The notes under the pieces are model-generated. The model was given only the letters and a program-made list of their open reading frames with translations. It was not told the DNA's origin and made no database searches. Positions 31,733 to 37,243 of a DNA stretch of 64,000 nucleotides are shown piece after piece (the stretch's first letter is position 1; each line of letters opens with the position of its first letter). The stretch spans positions 3,912,001 to 3,976,000 of the forward strand of contig NZ_AP025944.1 in assembly GCF_024349685.1 (NCBI RefSeq), written 5' to 3'. The translations under genes and the position numbers were made by a program. The stretch is from Pseudomonas sp. LRP2-20 (GTDB lineage: Bacteria > Pseudomonadota > Gammaproteobacteria > Pseudomonadales > Pseudomonadaceae).

Positions 31733-31797
31733 TTGTGAGGGAGCGGGATCCTCCCTACCGTATGGCGCTACCCAAGCCTCGGAAAAAAGGCCCCCTC

Positions 31798-33015
31798 ATG
31801 AACGACCGTGAGTTCATCAATGCCATCGATGCCGATGGCCAGCCCCTGAACATCGCCGTACGCAACGGCCGCATCAGCCACATCGGCCCGCAACGCGCCA
31901 GCATCGCCGCCGATGAAACCATCGACCTCGAAGGGCTGCTGGTGCTGCCCGGCTTCGTCGACGGCCACATCCATCTGGACAAGAGCTTTGTCGGCGACCG
32001 CTGGCGCCCGCACCAGCCGGTCGCCAGCCTGCGCGAGCGGCTGGCCGTGGAAAAGCGCGAGCTCGCCAGCGCCCCACCGATCGTCGAGCGTGCCGACGCG
32101 CTGATCCGCCAGGCCGCCTCGTTCGGCACCCTGGCCATGCGCTGCCATGTCGACGTCGACGCCACCACCGGCCTGGCCAACCTGCGCGCCATCCTCGAAG
32201 CCCGGGACACGTGGAAAGACCTGATCGACATCGAGCTGGTGGCCTTCCCACAAGCCGGCGTGGTGAGCTGCCCCGGCACCGCCGAAGTGATGGAAGCTGC
32301 CGTGCGCGAGGGCTTGCAGGTGGTCGGCGGCATCGACCCGACCACCCTGGATGGCGACGCCGAAGCCCAGCTTGATATCGTTTTCGGCATTGCCGAGCGG
32401 CATGGCGTGAAGGTCGACATCCACCTGCATGAGCCCGGCGACACCTGCATCGCCCAGCTCGAACGCATCGCCGCCCGCACCCAGGCACTGGGCATGCAAG
32501 GCCTGGTTGCGGTCAGCCACGCCTATGGCCTGGGCGATGTCAGCGACGCGGTAGTCGACCGCAGCGCAGCAGTGCTGGCCCGTGCCGGCGTGTCGATCAT
32601 GACCAACGCTCCCGGCGAACACGCCTTCCCGCCCGTACTGCGCCTGCGTGCTGGTGGCGTGCGGGTGTTCACTGGCAACGACAACATCCAGGACGCCTGG
32701 TGGCCCTATGGCAACGGCGACATGCTGCAACGGGCGATGCTGGTCAGCTACCGCTCGGGCTTCAATACCGACGAGGAATTGCGGGTAGCGCTGGAGATGG
32801 CGACCGTGGCCAGCGCCGGGGTGATGGGCAAGCAGGATTACGGGTTGAGGGTGGGCAATGAAGCCAGCTTCGTGCTGTTCAAGGCGCCAAATGCTGCGGC
32901 GGCGGTGGCAGCGGCCATTCATGAGCGGGTGATCGTGCGCCATGGCGCGTTCTGGGGCGGGCCTGCACAGTTGCAATTGAAGGCTGCGCAGTTCGCTACC
33001 GAATTGCGTCGCTAG
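31798..33015 (+). CDS. Amidohydrolase, cytosine deaminase-like
   Basis: The 405-residue protein belongs to the amidohydrolase superfamily: H57-x-H59 metal ligands in GFVDGHIHLDKSF, a MRCHVDVD segment, VDIHLHEPGD, VSHAYGLGD and TGNDNIQDAWWPYGNGDM, all in the CodA order. It probably deaminates or hydrolyses a cytosine-like or related heterocycle. The ATG at 31798 is preferred (MNDREFINAIDADG). The final codons GAATTGCGTCGC and the TAG are part of the first unit of the tandem array that follows; in the other units the TAG is CAG, so array recombination would lengthen this protein. Confidence 0.85.
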   Translation: MNDREFINAIDADGQPLNIAVRNGRISHIGPQRASIAADETIDLEGLLVLPGFVDGHIHLDKSFVGDRWRPHQPVASLRERLAVEKRELASAPPIVERADALIRQAASFGTLAMRCHVDVDATTGLANLRAILEARDTWKDLIDIELVAFPQAGVVSCPGTAEVMEAAVREGLQVVGGIDPTTLDGDAEAQLDIVFGIAERHGVKVDIHLHEPGDTCIAQLERIAARTQALGMQGLVAVSHAYGLGDVSDAVVDRSAAVLARAGVSIMTNAPGEHAFPPVLRLRAGGVRVFTGNDNIQDAWWPYGNGDMLQRAMLVSYRSGFNTDEELRVALEMATVASAGVMGKQDYGLRVGNEASFVLFKAPNAAAAVAAAIHERVIVRHGAFWGGPAQLQLKAAQFATELRR

Positions 33016-35183
33016 AGCGCTCTCTGGGGCCGCTCTGCGGCCCATCGCCGGCAAGCGCGGCTCCCACACAGGATTTGCGCCAGCTGGGCGTCCCGAGCAC
33101 TTGCACGAACCCTGTGGGAGCCGCGCTTGCCGGCGATGGGCTGCGAAGCAGCCCCCCTGATGACACACCAATTGCCAATTGTTACGCCTGCGATAAGTTC
33201 ATGGCCGCTAACCTGATGGGCAAATCATCAGGAGGCACAGAACATGGACTGTCCCCACTCAGATCGCAACTGAGGCAGTAAGGCCTGCCGAATTGCGTCG
33301 CCAGAGCGCTCTCTGGGGCCGCTCTGCGGCCCATCGCCGGCAAGCGCGGCTCCCACACAGGATTTGCGCCAGCTGGACGTCCCGAGCACTTGCACGAACC
33401 CTGTGGGAGCCGCGCTTGCCGGCGATGGGCTGCGAAGCAGCCCCCCTGATGACACACCAATTGCCAATTGTTACGCCTGCGATAAGTTCATGGCCGCTAA
33501 CCTGATGGACAAATCATCAGGAGGCACGGAACATGGACTGTCCCCACTCAGATCGCAACTGGGGCAGTAAGGCCTGCCGAATTGCGTCGCCAGAGCGCTC
33601 TCTGGGGCCGCTCTGCGGCCCATCGCCGGCAAGCGCGGCTCCCACACAGGATTTGCGCCAGCTGGAAGTCCCGCGCACTTGCACGAACCCTGTGGGAGCC
33701 GCGCTTGCCGGCGATGGGCTGCGAAGCAGCCCCCCTGATGACACACCAATTGCCAATTGTTACGCCTGCGATAAGTTCATGGCCGCTAACCTGATGGGCA
33801 AATCATCAGGAGGCACGGAACATGGACTGTCCCCACTCAGATCGCAACTGAGGCAGTAAGGCCTGCCGAATTGCGTCGCCAGAGCGCTCTCTGGGGCCGC
33901 TCTGCGGCCCATCGCCGGCAAGCGCGGCTCCCACACAGGATTTGCGCCAGCTGGAAGTCCCGCGCACTTGCACGAACCCTGTGGGAGCCGCGCTTGCCGG
34001 CGATGGGCTGCGAAGCAGCCCCCCTGATGACACACCAATTGCCAATTGTTACGCCTGCGATAAGTTCATGGCCGCTAACCTGATGGGCAAATCATCAGGA
34101 GGCACGGAACATGGACTGTCCCCACTCAGATCGCAACTGAGGCAGTAAGGCCTGCCGAATTGCGTCGCCAGAGCGCTCTCTGGGGCCGCTCTGCGGCCCA
34201 TCGCCGGCAAGCGCGGCTCCCACACAGGATTTGCGCCAGCTGGAAGTCCCGAGCACTTGCACGAACCCTGTGGGAGCCGCGCTTGCCGGCGATGGGCTGC
34301 GAAGCAGCCCCCTAGAGACACACCAAGTGCCAATTCTCACGCCATCGATAGACTCATGGCCGCTAGCCTGATGGGTAAATCATCAGGAGGCAGAGAACAT
34401 GGACCGTCCCCACTCAGATCGCAACTGGGGCAGTAAGGCCTGCCGAATTGCGTCGCCAGAGCGCTCTCTGGGGCCGCTCTGCGGCCCATCGCCGGCAAGC
34501 GCGGCTCCCACACCGGATTTGCGCCAGCTGGAAGTCCCGAGCACTTGCACGAACCCTGTGGGAGCCGCGCTTGCCGGCGATGGGCTGCGAAGCAGCCCCC
34601 CTGATGACACGCCAATTGCCAATTGTTACGCCTGCGATAAGTTCATGGCCGCTAACCTGATGGGCAAATCATCAGGAGGCACGGAACATGGACTGTCCCC
34701 ACTCAGATCGCAACTGAGGCAGTAAGGCCTGCCGAATTGCGTCGCCAGAGCGCTCTCTGGGGCCGCTCTGCGGCCCATCGCCGGCAAGCGCGGCTCCCAC
34801 ACAGGATTTGCGCCAGCTGGAAGTCCCGCGCACTTGCACGAACCCTGTGGGAGCCGCGCTTGCCGGCGATGGGCTGCGAAGCAGCCCCCCTGATGACACA
34901 CCAATTGCCAATTGTTACGCCTGCGATAAGTTCATGGCCGCTAACCTGATGGACAAATCATCAGGAGGCACGGAACATGGACTGTCCCCACTCAGATCGC
35001 AACTGGGGCAGTAAGGCCTGCCGAATTGCGTCGCCAGAGCGCTCTCTGGGGCCGCTCTGCGGCCCATCGCCGGCAAGCGCGGCTCCCACACAGGATTTGC
35101 GCCAGCTGGAAGTCCCGCGCACTTGCACGAACCCTGGACTGCCCCCAAGAAGTTGGACAAAAAATCCAACCCTTGGGGGACCT

Positions 35184-35702
35184 ATGGGCAAGTACACAGA
35201 GCAGTTCAAGCTCACAGCCATCACCGCTTACCTGGATGGCAATAATGGCTTCCGAAAGGTAGCCCAACATTTCGGTATCGACTTCAGCCTGCTGCGCCGA
35301 TGGGTTTCCAGCTATCAGCGCAATTCCAGCCTTCCTCCACGTTCGCCTGGGCGGGGTTATGACGACGATTTTAAGCGGCAGGTGGTCAGCTACATGCACG
35401 AGCATCGTCTTTCTATGCGGCAAACCGCAGCGCATTTTGGCCTCGGCCAATCGTCGCGGATAGGCAACTGGCAGCGGCAGTACTACAGTGGTGACCTTGT
35501 AGCTCCCGTCGACCGCCAGAAAAAGCCGATCAAAGTGCCGAAGAAGATCAAACCTGCAAAACCCACAGATACCGACGACTCGCAAAAGTCCCGAGACCAA
35601 CTGATGGCGGAGCTCGAATACCTGCGCATGGAGAATGCTGTTTTAAAGGAGCTCAAGGCTTTACGGGAGGAAAAGGAACGAATATCGGGGAAAAAGCCCT
35701 GA
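35184..35702 (+). CDS. IS3-family OrfA (helix-turn-helix protein)
   Basis: The 172-residue protein begins MGKYTEQFKLTAITAYLDGN, has an HTH (GFRKVAQHFGIDFSLLRRWV), a second HTH-like segment (SMRQTAAHFGLGQSSRIGNW) and a C-terminal leucine-zipper-like helix (RDQLMAELEYLRMENAVLKE). It binds the IS ends and, by -1 frameshifting, forms the OrfAB transposase. Upstream of its ATG the frame remains open through the IS end into the array, so a longer fused start at 34977 is possible. Confidence 0.92.
   Translation: MGKYTEQFKLTAITAYLDGNNGFRKVAQHFGIDFSLLRRWVSSYQRNSSLPPRSPGRGYDDDFKRQVVSYMHEHRLSMRQTAAHFGLGQSSRIGNWQRQYYSGDLVAPVDRQKKPIKVPKKIKPAKPTDTDDSQKSRDQLMAELEYLRMENAVLKELKALREEKERISGKKP
35690..35696 (+). 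promoter_or_regulatory. Programmed -1 frameshift heptamer G AAA AAG
   Basis: Near the orfA end the zero frame reads GGG AAA AAG CCC TGA. Slipping back one base on G_AAA_AAG continues as GCC CTG ATC GTT TCC AGG, which is the normal OrfB N-terminus (ALIVSRLKRRFPLPDLL). This is the usual arrangement for making OrfAB. Confidence 0.8.
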
Positions 35703-35731
35703 TCGTTTCCAGGCTCAAACGTAGATTTCCT

Positions 35732-36538
35732 TTGCCTGACCTGCTGGGGCTGGTCGGGCTGGCTCGCAGTACCTTTTATTATCAGGTGCAAAGCCAGCAG
35801 AAGCCGGACAAATATGCCGAGCTTAACGAGAAGATTCAGCAGATCTATCACAAAGAGAAAGGGCGCTACGGCTATCGACGCGTTGCACTCGTGATTAGAA
35901 AGGAGGGGGTGCAGGTCAACAAGAAGGTCATCGAGAAACTGATGGCTGCCCTAGGGTTGAAGTCACTGGTACGCCCCAAGAAATATCAGTCCTACCGAGG
36001 TGCCGTGGGCAAGATAGCGGCGAATTTGCTGGAGCGAAATTTCGTCGCCCAGCGTCCTAACCAAAAATGGGTGAGTGACGTAACCGAGTTCAAGGTGGCT
36101 CAACAGAAGCTCTATCTTTCGCCGGTGATGGACTTGTACAACGGGGAAATCATCGCCTATGAGACGGCTAGCCGCCCCCAGTACAGCCTGGTTGGAAATA
36201 TGCTGGATAAGGCACTCAATACCTTGGGAGAAAAGCCGAAGCTAGTGCTCCACACCGACCAGGGATGGCAGTACCAGCAGGCTCAATATCGTCACAAGCT
36301 TCGCAGTCGCGGCGTGAAACAGAGCATGTCTCGTAAAGGCAATTGCCTGGACAATGCGGCTATGGAAAGCTTCTTCGGGACGCTCAAGTCAGAGTTTTTC
36401 TACCTAAAGCGTTTCGAGAGTATTGATGAATTGAAAGCAGGCCTGGATGAGTACATTCACTACTACAACCATGACCGCATCAAGCTGAAGCTCAATGGCC
36501 TGAGCCCTGTCGAGTACAGGACCCAGGCGGCAGCTTAA
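35732..36538 (+). CDS. IS3-family OrfB (DDE integrase-type transposase)
   Basis: The 268-residue frame holds the catalytic rve domain: an HTH_21 region (GRYGYRRVALVIRKEGVQVN), QKWVSDVTEF with the first Asp, LHTDQGWQYQ with the second Asp and NCLDNAAMESFFGTLKSE with the Glu, so DDE is complete. It is normally expressed as a fusion with OrfA after frameshifting at 35690; the ATG at 35732 is only the first in-frame start, and the real OrfB segment begins about 12 codons earlier. Confidence 0.93.
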   Translation: MPDLLGLVGLARSTFYYQVQSQQKPDKYAELNEKIQQIYHKEKGRYGYRRVALVIRKEGVQVNKKVIEKLMAALGLKSLVRPKKYQSYRGAVGKIAANLLERNFVAQRPNQKWVSDVTEFKVAQQKLYLSPVMDLYNGEIIAYETASRPQYSLVGNMLDKALNTLGEKPKLVLHTDQGWQYQQAQYRHKLRSRGVKQSMSRKGNCLDNAAMESFFGTLKSEFFYLKRFESIDELKAGLDEYIHYYNHDRIKLKLNGLSPVEYRTQAAA

Positions 36539-36700
36539 AACTGTCCAACTTTTGGGGGGCAGTCCAACCCTGTGGGAGCCGCGCTTGCCGGCGATGGGCT
36601 GCGAAGCAGCCCCCTAGAGACACACCAAGTGCCAATTCTCACGCCATCGATAGACTCATGGCCGCTAGCCTGAGGGGTAAATCATCAGGAGGCAGAGAAC

Positions 36701-37156
36701 ATGGACCGTCCCCATTCAGAGCAATTGAGACTTGGCCGGTTCTCAGAAACTAGTCGACTGTATCTGCTCACCAGCACGACGTTGGGCAGGGCGCATATCT
36801 TCAGTGAATTTCACTCAGCCCGTGTGCTGGTGAATCAATTCCGTCAGGCGCAAGAGGAAGGCGCCGCCCGATCTCTGGCCTGGGTGGTGATGCCTGACCA
36901 TTTCCACTGGCTGGTCGAGCTCGGGCCAATGAGCTTGAGGCAACTGATGCGGCGCGTGAAGTCGCGAAGCACCCTGATGATCAACCGGCACAGAGGACGA
37001 AGCGGGCAACTGTGGCAGAAAGGCTTTCATGACCGGGCGCTATGCCGTGAAGAAGATGTCCAGGCAGTGGCGCGGTACATCATCATGAACCCGAAGCGAG
37101 CAGGCTTGGTCGAGAGCGTCGGCGACTATCCACATTGGGATGCAATCTGGCTCTGA
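36701..37156 (+). CDS. REP-associated tyrosine transposase (RAYT, Y1/HUH family)
   Basis: The 151-residue protein has the HUH motif H67-F-H69 (VVMPDHFHWLVEL), the RAYT signature GQLWQKGFHDRAL, and the catalytic Tyr126 in QAVARYIIMNPKRAGLV. RAYTs are single-domain tyrosine transposases thought to move or process REP palindromes by single-strand cleavage. The gene is the only complete copy of the sequence whose leader is repeated seven times upstream. The ribosome site AGGAGG (36687-36692) is identical to that in each unit. It lies directly beside its likely REP substrates. Confidence 0.93.
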   Translation: MDRPHSEQLRLGRFSETSRLYLLTSTTLGRAHIFSEFHSARVLVNQFRQAQEEGAARSLAWVVMPDHFHWLVELGPMSLRQLMRRVKSRSTLMINRHRGRSGQLWQKGFHDRALCREEDVQAVARYIIMNPKRAGLVESVGDYPHWDAIWL

Positions 37157-37177
37157 TCATGCCGAGCAGGCTACTCC

Positions 37178-37242
37178 ACACCCGTGGGAGCCGCGCTTGT
37201 CGTGGCGACGAACCGCGGCGATGGGCTGCAAGGCAGCACCCC
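37178..37242. repeat. Degenerate REP pair after the RAYT gene
   Basis: CCCGTGGGAGCCGCGCTTGT and GCGGCGATGGGCTGCAAGGC with an insertion of TGGCGACGAAC show the array-type REP (GTGGGAGCCGCGCTTG) in decayed form. It flanks RAYT on the other side, so the gene is bracketed by REPs, as is typical. Confidence 0.65.
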
Positions 37243-37243
37243 C

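Follow-up and report, generated by a model that had tools for sequence, protein, structure and literature searches.

An eight-unit REPIN array carrying truncated RAYT gene starts in Pseudomonas sp. LRP2-20, a probable by-product of local recombination

Repetitive extragenic palindromes (REPs) and the genes of REP-associated tyrosine transposases (RAYTs) are found together in modular repeats. In Pseudomonas fluorescens SBW25, a cluster of inverted REP pairs (REPINs) adjoins each of three RAYTs (Bertels and Rainey 2011, PMC3116915), and one third of the examined RAYTs are arranged with bacterial interspersed mosaic elements (BIMEs; Nunvar 2010, PMC2817692). The locus described here lies in a 64,000-nucleotide stretch of the Pseudomonas sp. 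LRP2-20 genome (contig NZ_AP025944.1, positions 3,912,001 to 3,976,000; hereafter the window, whose numbering is used unless stated otherwise) and consists of eight tandem REPIN units that lead into an intact RAYT gene. The most probable reading, at roughly 75%, is that the array is a by-product of local recombination at a type of site known to grow repeats and that its upstream RAYT starts are dead.

Like the SBW25 clusters (PMC3116915), the array is an ordered tandem series of near-identical REPINs with flanking sequence next to a RAYT. It differs from them in the content of the unit, which here also includes the RAYT leader, the ATG, 33 nt of RAYT sequence, and the end of the preceding gene, as well as in unit number, the largest ordered SBW25 cluster in the available text of that paper having four REPINs and one REP. 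With BIME-associated RAYTs (PMC2817692), it shares the combination of a RAYT and REPs in a modular repeat; BIME modules, however, are described there as REP-based, and gene ends within the unit go unmentioned in the accessible part of that paper. The placement of an array beside a RAYT is already known from these sources; what is unusual is that the unit has captured two gene ends. An earlier note on this DNA started from the premise that RAYTs normally come with one or two REPs, which is too strong in light of both papers and of the tandem arrays within 1 kb of the gene at 8 of 80 other RAYT loci. No published array with a RAYT start in its unit was found in the literature searched, mostly by title and abstract, which is no proof of absence.

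Tandem Repeats Finder (TRF) delimits the array at 32999-35136 with a period of 289, 7.4 copies, 97% matches, and a score of 4052, for which chance is not an issue. Eight unit starts can be placed (Table 1), seven of them opening full units that together span 32999-35020; these are followed by the left part of unit 8, an insertion sequence (IS) of the IS3 family, the right part of unit 8, and the intact RAYT. The array that the earlier note reported is borne out by both the TRF result and the unit starts, and all seven full units contain, as it had stated, a REP pair and a leader, together with an ATG and an AGGAGG that resembles a ribosome site, with the eighth ATG being the start of the real RAYT. 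That gene is complete, as claimed, and matches NCBIfam NF047646 with 154.1 bits (cut-off 80). The assertion that the last unit continues into a full transposase holds insofar as unit 8 leads to the RAYT, but the IS, which fell within the note's interval and went unmentioned in its text, breaks this unit between its two REPs. Similarly, "near-identical" is apt for the half of the unit that holds the REP pair but not for the leader, of which two types exist, and the description of the unit omitted the amidohydrolase tail.

Each unit opens with the amidohydrolase 3′ end, CCGAATTGCGTCGC, followed by the inverted REP pair, a RAYT-type leader, 33 nt of the RAYT coding start, and finally about 11 nt of sequence without assigned origin. 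The array begins with the last 14 coding nucleotides of the amidohydrolase gene and its stop; the true stop is kept in unit 1 only, and units 2-8 have CAG for TAG. As single-stranded DNA, the REP pair folds into one long hairpin of -60.1 kcal/mol, compared with a mean of -32.7 (sd 2.9, z = -9.3) for 200 shuffled sequences. A whole-genome search with unit 4 returned 119 matches on both strands, array included (40 of 274 first-look candidates scored), and the REP-like matches are scattered around the genome; no plasmid copy of the unit was matched.

The join between units is common to all of them: its left side matches the RAYT for 33 nt, and its right side is the amidohydrolase 3′ end. Because independent REP insertions would not copy a common gene-end join, they are an unlikely source of the units, and an origin by eight independent REP or RAYT insertions was rejected on this ground. 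When the filler and join (26 bases, up to five edits) were sought in loci L011-L150, the only hit besides the own genome was one poor match in L091, which is taken as chance.

Tandem growth beside RAYTs is also seen in other species, which supports an origin by local recombination. The best 80 of at least 578 stretches encoding a relative of this RAYT in the genome collection yielded 10 merged TRF arrays (period of at least 50, at least 1.8 copies), eight of which are no more than 1 kb away from the RAYT, in a zone that accounts for 20% of the bases (binomial p = 9e-5, an optimistic value given that the loci come from related species, that some arrays are alike, such as those of L110 and L126, and that contig ends cut some loci). 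Another 60 RAYT loci, L011-L070, stand outside this count; a first TRF pass, covering loci from L011 up, also gave arrays in L018, L023, L058, L062, and L067, the last being the same place as L121. REP-containing tandem arrays of about 3 to 6 units with periods of 101-188 occur in other Pseudomonas beside the RAYTs of L023, L058, L062, L091, L096, L121, and L144.

This enrichment of arrays beside RAYTs also speaks for an array made by the transposase itself, which would have cut single-stranded REPs and joined them during replication, as does in vitro work in which E. coli TnpA-REP cut and recombined REPs in single-stranded form, acting at CT dinucleotides (PMC8266576). Such an origin is nonetheless unlikely, since the units are joined within coding sequence (33 nt into the RAYT on one side, the amidohydrolase end on the other) and not at a REP border. 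Nicking by the RAYT could still have started array formation.

None of the 80 other RAYT loci has an array of truncated RAYT starts like that of the window. In a self-search with the RAYT leader and start across the 80 loci and the window, the start is repeated only in the window and in Pseudomonas sp. MYb60 (L125), with short self-matches of 22-35 bases upstream of the RAYT start being all that L086, L104, and L113 return. MYb60 carries a tandem duplication of a complete RAYT with REPs (L125:5074-6633). Both loci thus hold the RAYT leader and start more than once in tandem, but MYb60 has about two 729-bp units and two copies of the complete gene, whereas the array described here is a string of truncated starts.

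Relatives show the locus in simpler states in a comparison of the kind that the earlier note had suggested. The amidohydrolase was searched in 398 genomes of the genus, and the 24 matches at E ≤ 1e-60 made 20 loci, one of which is the own genome. A RAYT is present at 1 of the 19 others (L153, from MN1F), and at 11 (L152, L154-L156, L158-L161, L163, L164, and L166), all from other species, the amidohydrolase stands beside lysR without a RAYT. The remaining seven loci (L157, L162, L165, and L167-L170) were set aside for want of a lysR match or for a partial amidohydrolase, and no RAYT match occurs in them. MN1F has no array, only one REP upstream of one RAYT and REP-like sequence downstream, and several of the RAYT-less gaps have a REP pair of their own (L152, L155, L156, and L159; all REPs judged by eye). 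Within the set of 80 RAYT loci, an amidohydrolase match is confined to L072 (MN1F) and a lysR match to L071 and L072; L071 (NBRC 111124) is syntenic on the lysR side, and its contig ends inside a REP.

The leaders record a more complex history. Type A leaders, found in six of the seven full units, are identical to one another at 113-115 of 115 positions, and the type B leaders of unit 5 and the real RAYT agree at 113 of 115. The two types agree at only 95-99 of 114 columns (about 84% identity), which is about the distance of either from the MN1F leader (96-97/115 and 97/114). Judged on eight outgroup leaders, the A-B differences occupy 15 of 52 less conserved columns and 5 of 65 conserved ones (Fisher p = 0.003). 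Because they sit mostly in non-conserved columns, type A was probably still leading a working RAYT, since lost, when it diverged, or the present RAYT part arrived by recombination at a REP. No source of type A was found elsewhere in the genome: all listed unit 4 matches that reach the leader (from the 40 of 274 candidates scored) lie at the array locus, and another genomic copy was rejected as its origin. In the 398 genus genomes, the type A leader and start match five at E ≤ 1e-8, the own genome included, and no donor species emerges, the best other match being MN1F (G098) at only 85%.

The near-identity of the REP-pair halves beside type A and type B leaders suggests that exchange has taken place within the locus. 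Unit 5 itself is mosaic, having the RAYT leader type over about 95 bp and being type A elsewhere. In addition, columns 97 and 274 of the unit alignment display all four allele combinations (A/A in unit 1, A/G in unit 2, C/A in unit 3, and C/G in unit 7), a shuffling of markers that points to unequal exchange or gene conversion among the units. On average, 1.3% separates the six type A units from one another, while the amidohydrolase is 92% identical to that of G098, taken as MN1F, corresponding to 8% divergence; growth of the array or its last homogenization is therefore recent relative to the MN1F split. The shuffled markers, the leader tract of unit 5, and the absence of an array in MN1F together support the suggestion in the earlier note of a recombination-prone amplification with recent growth or gene conversion.

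Several points weigh against this account. The leader of the real RAYT is about 16% off type A, though the REP-pair halves are nearly identical, so simple duplication is insufficient and a second, lost RAYT allele or a replacement of the RAYT part by recombination is needed. The four-combination pattern could also stem from repeated mutation, and gene conversion can keep an old array uniform, such that 1.3% provides no clean age. Among the relatives, the upstream state of the RAYT orthologue in NBRC 111124 is cut off by the contig end within a REP, draft assemblies such as that of MN1F can collapse arrays, and the species that carries the array is represented by a single strain.

Local recombination, the favored explanation, would have proceeded in five steps, in an order that we infer: (i) within one lineage of related Pseudomonas, a RAYT with flanking REPs would have entered the gap between the amidohydrolase gene and the convergent lysR, (ii) a rare illegitimate join would have linked the first 33 nt of a RAYT frame to the final 14 nt of the amidohydrolase gene, (iii) this join would have produced a tandem duplication of everything between, that is, the REPIN and the leader, (iv) homologous unequal exchange and gene conversion would have expanded the array to eight units and partially homogenized it, and (v) the IS3-family element would have entered the last unit later. 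The likely trigger is the long REPIN hairpin, acting through replication slippage or a nick. The locus offers a specific case of the way in which REPIN clusters next to RAYTs may expand, with a visible join, RAYT-free and single-unit states in relatives, and unit markers that record exchange. Such growth can carry along pieces of two neighboring genes, and these could be misannotated as repeated gene starts.

The seven upstream RAYT starts look like frameshifted relics. They match the RAYT over 33 nt only, with an insertion of 2 nt by comparison with three intact RAYTs (those of the own genome, MN1F, and NBRC 111124), and because of this insertion they are out of frame. The short peptide MDCPHSDRN put forward in the earlier note can be read to a stop in four of the seven units (1, 3, 4, and 6), but units 2, 5, and 7 have TGG in place of TGA, and their frames read on to 108, 108, and 241 aa, respectively. 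In unit 7, the frame that begins at the relic start stays open into orfA of the IS, with which it is in phase, and comprises 241 codons (34977-35702). The unit-spanning frame at 33533-33856, the only frame searched, was rejected as a protein of other strains, none of 24 candidates being a homologue at E ≤ 1e-5. A promoter scan of 33001-36800, limited to the sigma-70 type, gave 0 matches against a mean of 1.2 in shuffled sequences, and the idea that the array multiplies a promoter is not borne out for that type. Titration and short peptides, also raised as possible roles, find no support given the lack of a sigma-70-type match, the frameshifted starts, and the lack of a homologue of the frame searched. 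The analyses run revealed no regulatory function or product, and the array would be a by-product.

A related proposal is that the repeated REP and leader copies serve as a decoy in cis, binding the RAYT or a regulator or soaking up a small RNA that controls the leader, and in this way limit RAYT activity. In its favor, leader sequences are partly conserved in an alignment of RAYTs from different loci, and the bias of the A-B differences toward less conserved columns suggests that type A probably diverged under constraint. The same constraint is expected, however, if type A once led a working RAYT, and the negative promoter scan, the frameshifted starts, and the absence of such an array of starts at the 80 other RAYT loci make a decoy quite unlikely. 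Very doubtful, too, is the broader notion that RAYT loci are hot spots of tandem growth whose arrays can capture the transposase control region, with dead leaders, refreshed by gene conversion with the live gene as in unit 5, buffering RAYT expression in cis and keeping alternative leaders in store. That a single unit was multiplied in assembly is hardly credible, since the genome is one contig of 6,034,532 bases and differences among the seven full units occupy 24 columns of their alignment, the distinct unit 5 leader among them, although the identity of units 3 and 4 makes a miscount by one unit harder to exclude.

Table 1. Features of the array and its immediate neighbors (window positions).
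Feature	Position	Strand	Length	Remarks
Amidohydrolase / cytosine-deaminase-like gene	31735-33015	+		NF004636, 572.5 bits (cut-off 408)
Unit 1	32999-33287	+	289 bp	type A leader; holds the real amidohydrolase stop; relic ATG 33244
Unit 2	33288-33576	+	289 bp	type A leader; relic ATG 33533
Unit 3	33577-33865	+	289 bp	type A leader; relic ATG 33822; same sequence as unit 4
Unit 4	33866-34154	+	289 bp	type A leader; relic ATG 34111; REP pair 33892-34023 folds as one long hairpin
Unit 5	34155-34442	+	288 bp	type B leader like the real RAYT; relic ATG 34399
Unit 6	34443-34731	+	289 bp	type A leader; relic ATG 34688
Unit 7	34732-35020	+	289 bp	type A leader; relic ATG 34977
Unit 8, left part	35021-35134	+		holds the amidohydrolase tail plus the first REP; interrupted by the IS
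IS3-family element	35135-36566	+	1432 bp	orfA 35184-35702; orfB 35732-36538; 4-bp target repeat ACCC on each side
Unit 8, right part	36567-36700	+		holds the second REP plus the RAYT leader (type B)
Intact RAYT gene	36701-37156	+	151 aa	Y1_Tnp; with HFH and ARY stretches
REP remnants between the RAYT and the convergent lysR gene	37157-37243	+		by eye

The IS within unit 8 is assigned to the IS3 family by orfB (NF033516, 331.6 bits, cut-off 160), orfA alone remaining below the cut-off at 63.8 bits. It has three further copies in the genome, all 100% identical after rounding. Since it occurs in one unit only and these copies are identical to that precision, its insertion is probably later than the growth of the array. 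The target repeats are 3 bp at the three other copies and 4 bp at the array copy. By eye, a REP lies within about 50 bp on the left of all four copies, and its inverted partner within about 35 bp on the right of three, so the element may be REP-pair-seeking. REP-targeting IS elements are known, for example ISPsy8, of the IS3 family, and IS1397 (PMC1525189). The present element resembles them as an IS3-family element in a REP context at 4/4 copies but differs in that it inserts outside the REP palindromes, at varying distance and at no single fixed base, and in that three of the four copies sit between the two REPs of a pair (comparison with the available text of PMC1525189).

The intact RAYT also matches Pfam Y1_Tnp (39.9 bits, cut-off 23). 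Its protein carries HFH within MPDHFHW and a tyrosine within VARYIIMNP, which we take to be the HuH motif and the catalytic tyrosine of a predicted transposase activity. The REP upstream of the gene is clear, and downstream, by eye, a decayed inverted REP is followed by a REP-like stretch in direct orientation. The closest relatives of this RAYT in the genome collection are from Pseudomonas and include strains named P. juntendi, P. pudica, and P. putida, presumably all members of the P. putida group. The own genome has a second RAYT at genome positions 259,888-260,329 (within L181, 257,500-263,000), a different, frame-broken gene whose two pieces are 52-56% identical to the intact RAYT and near which, by eye, REPs of a different type are found.

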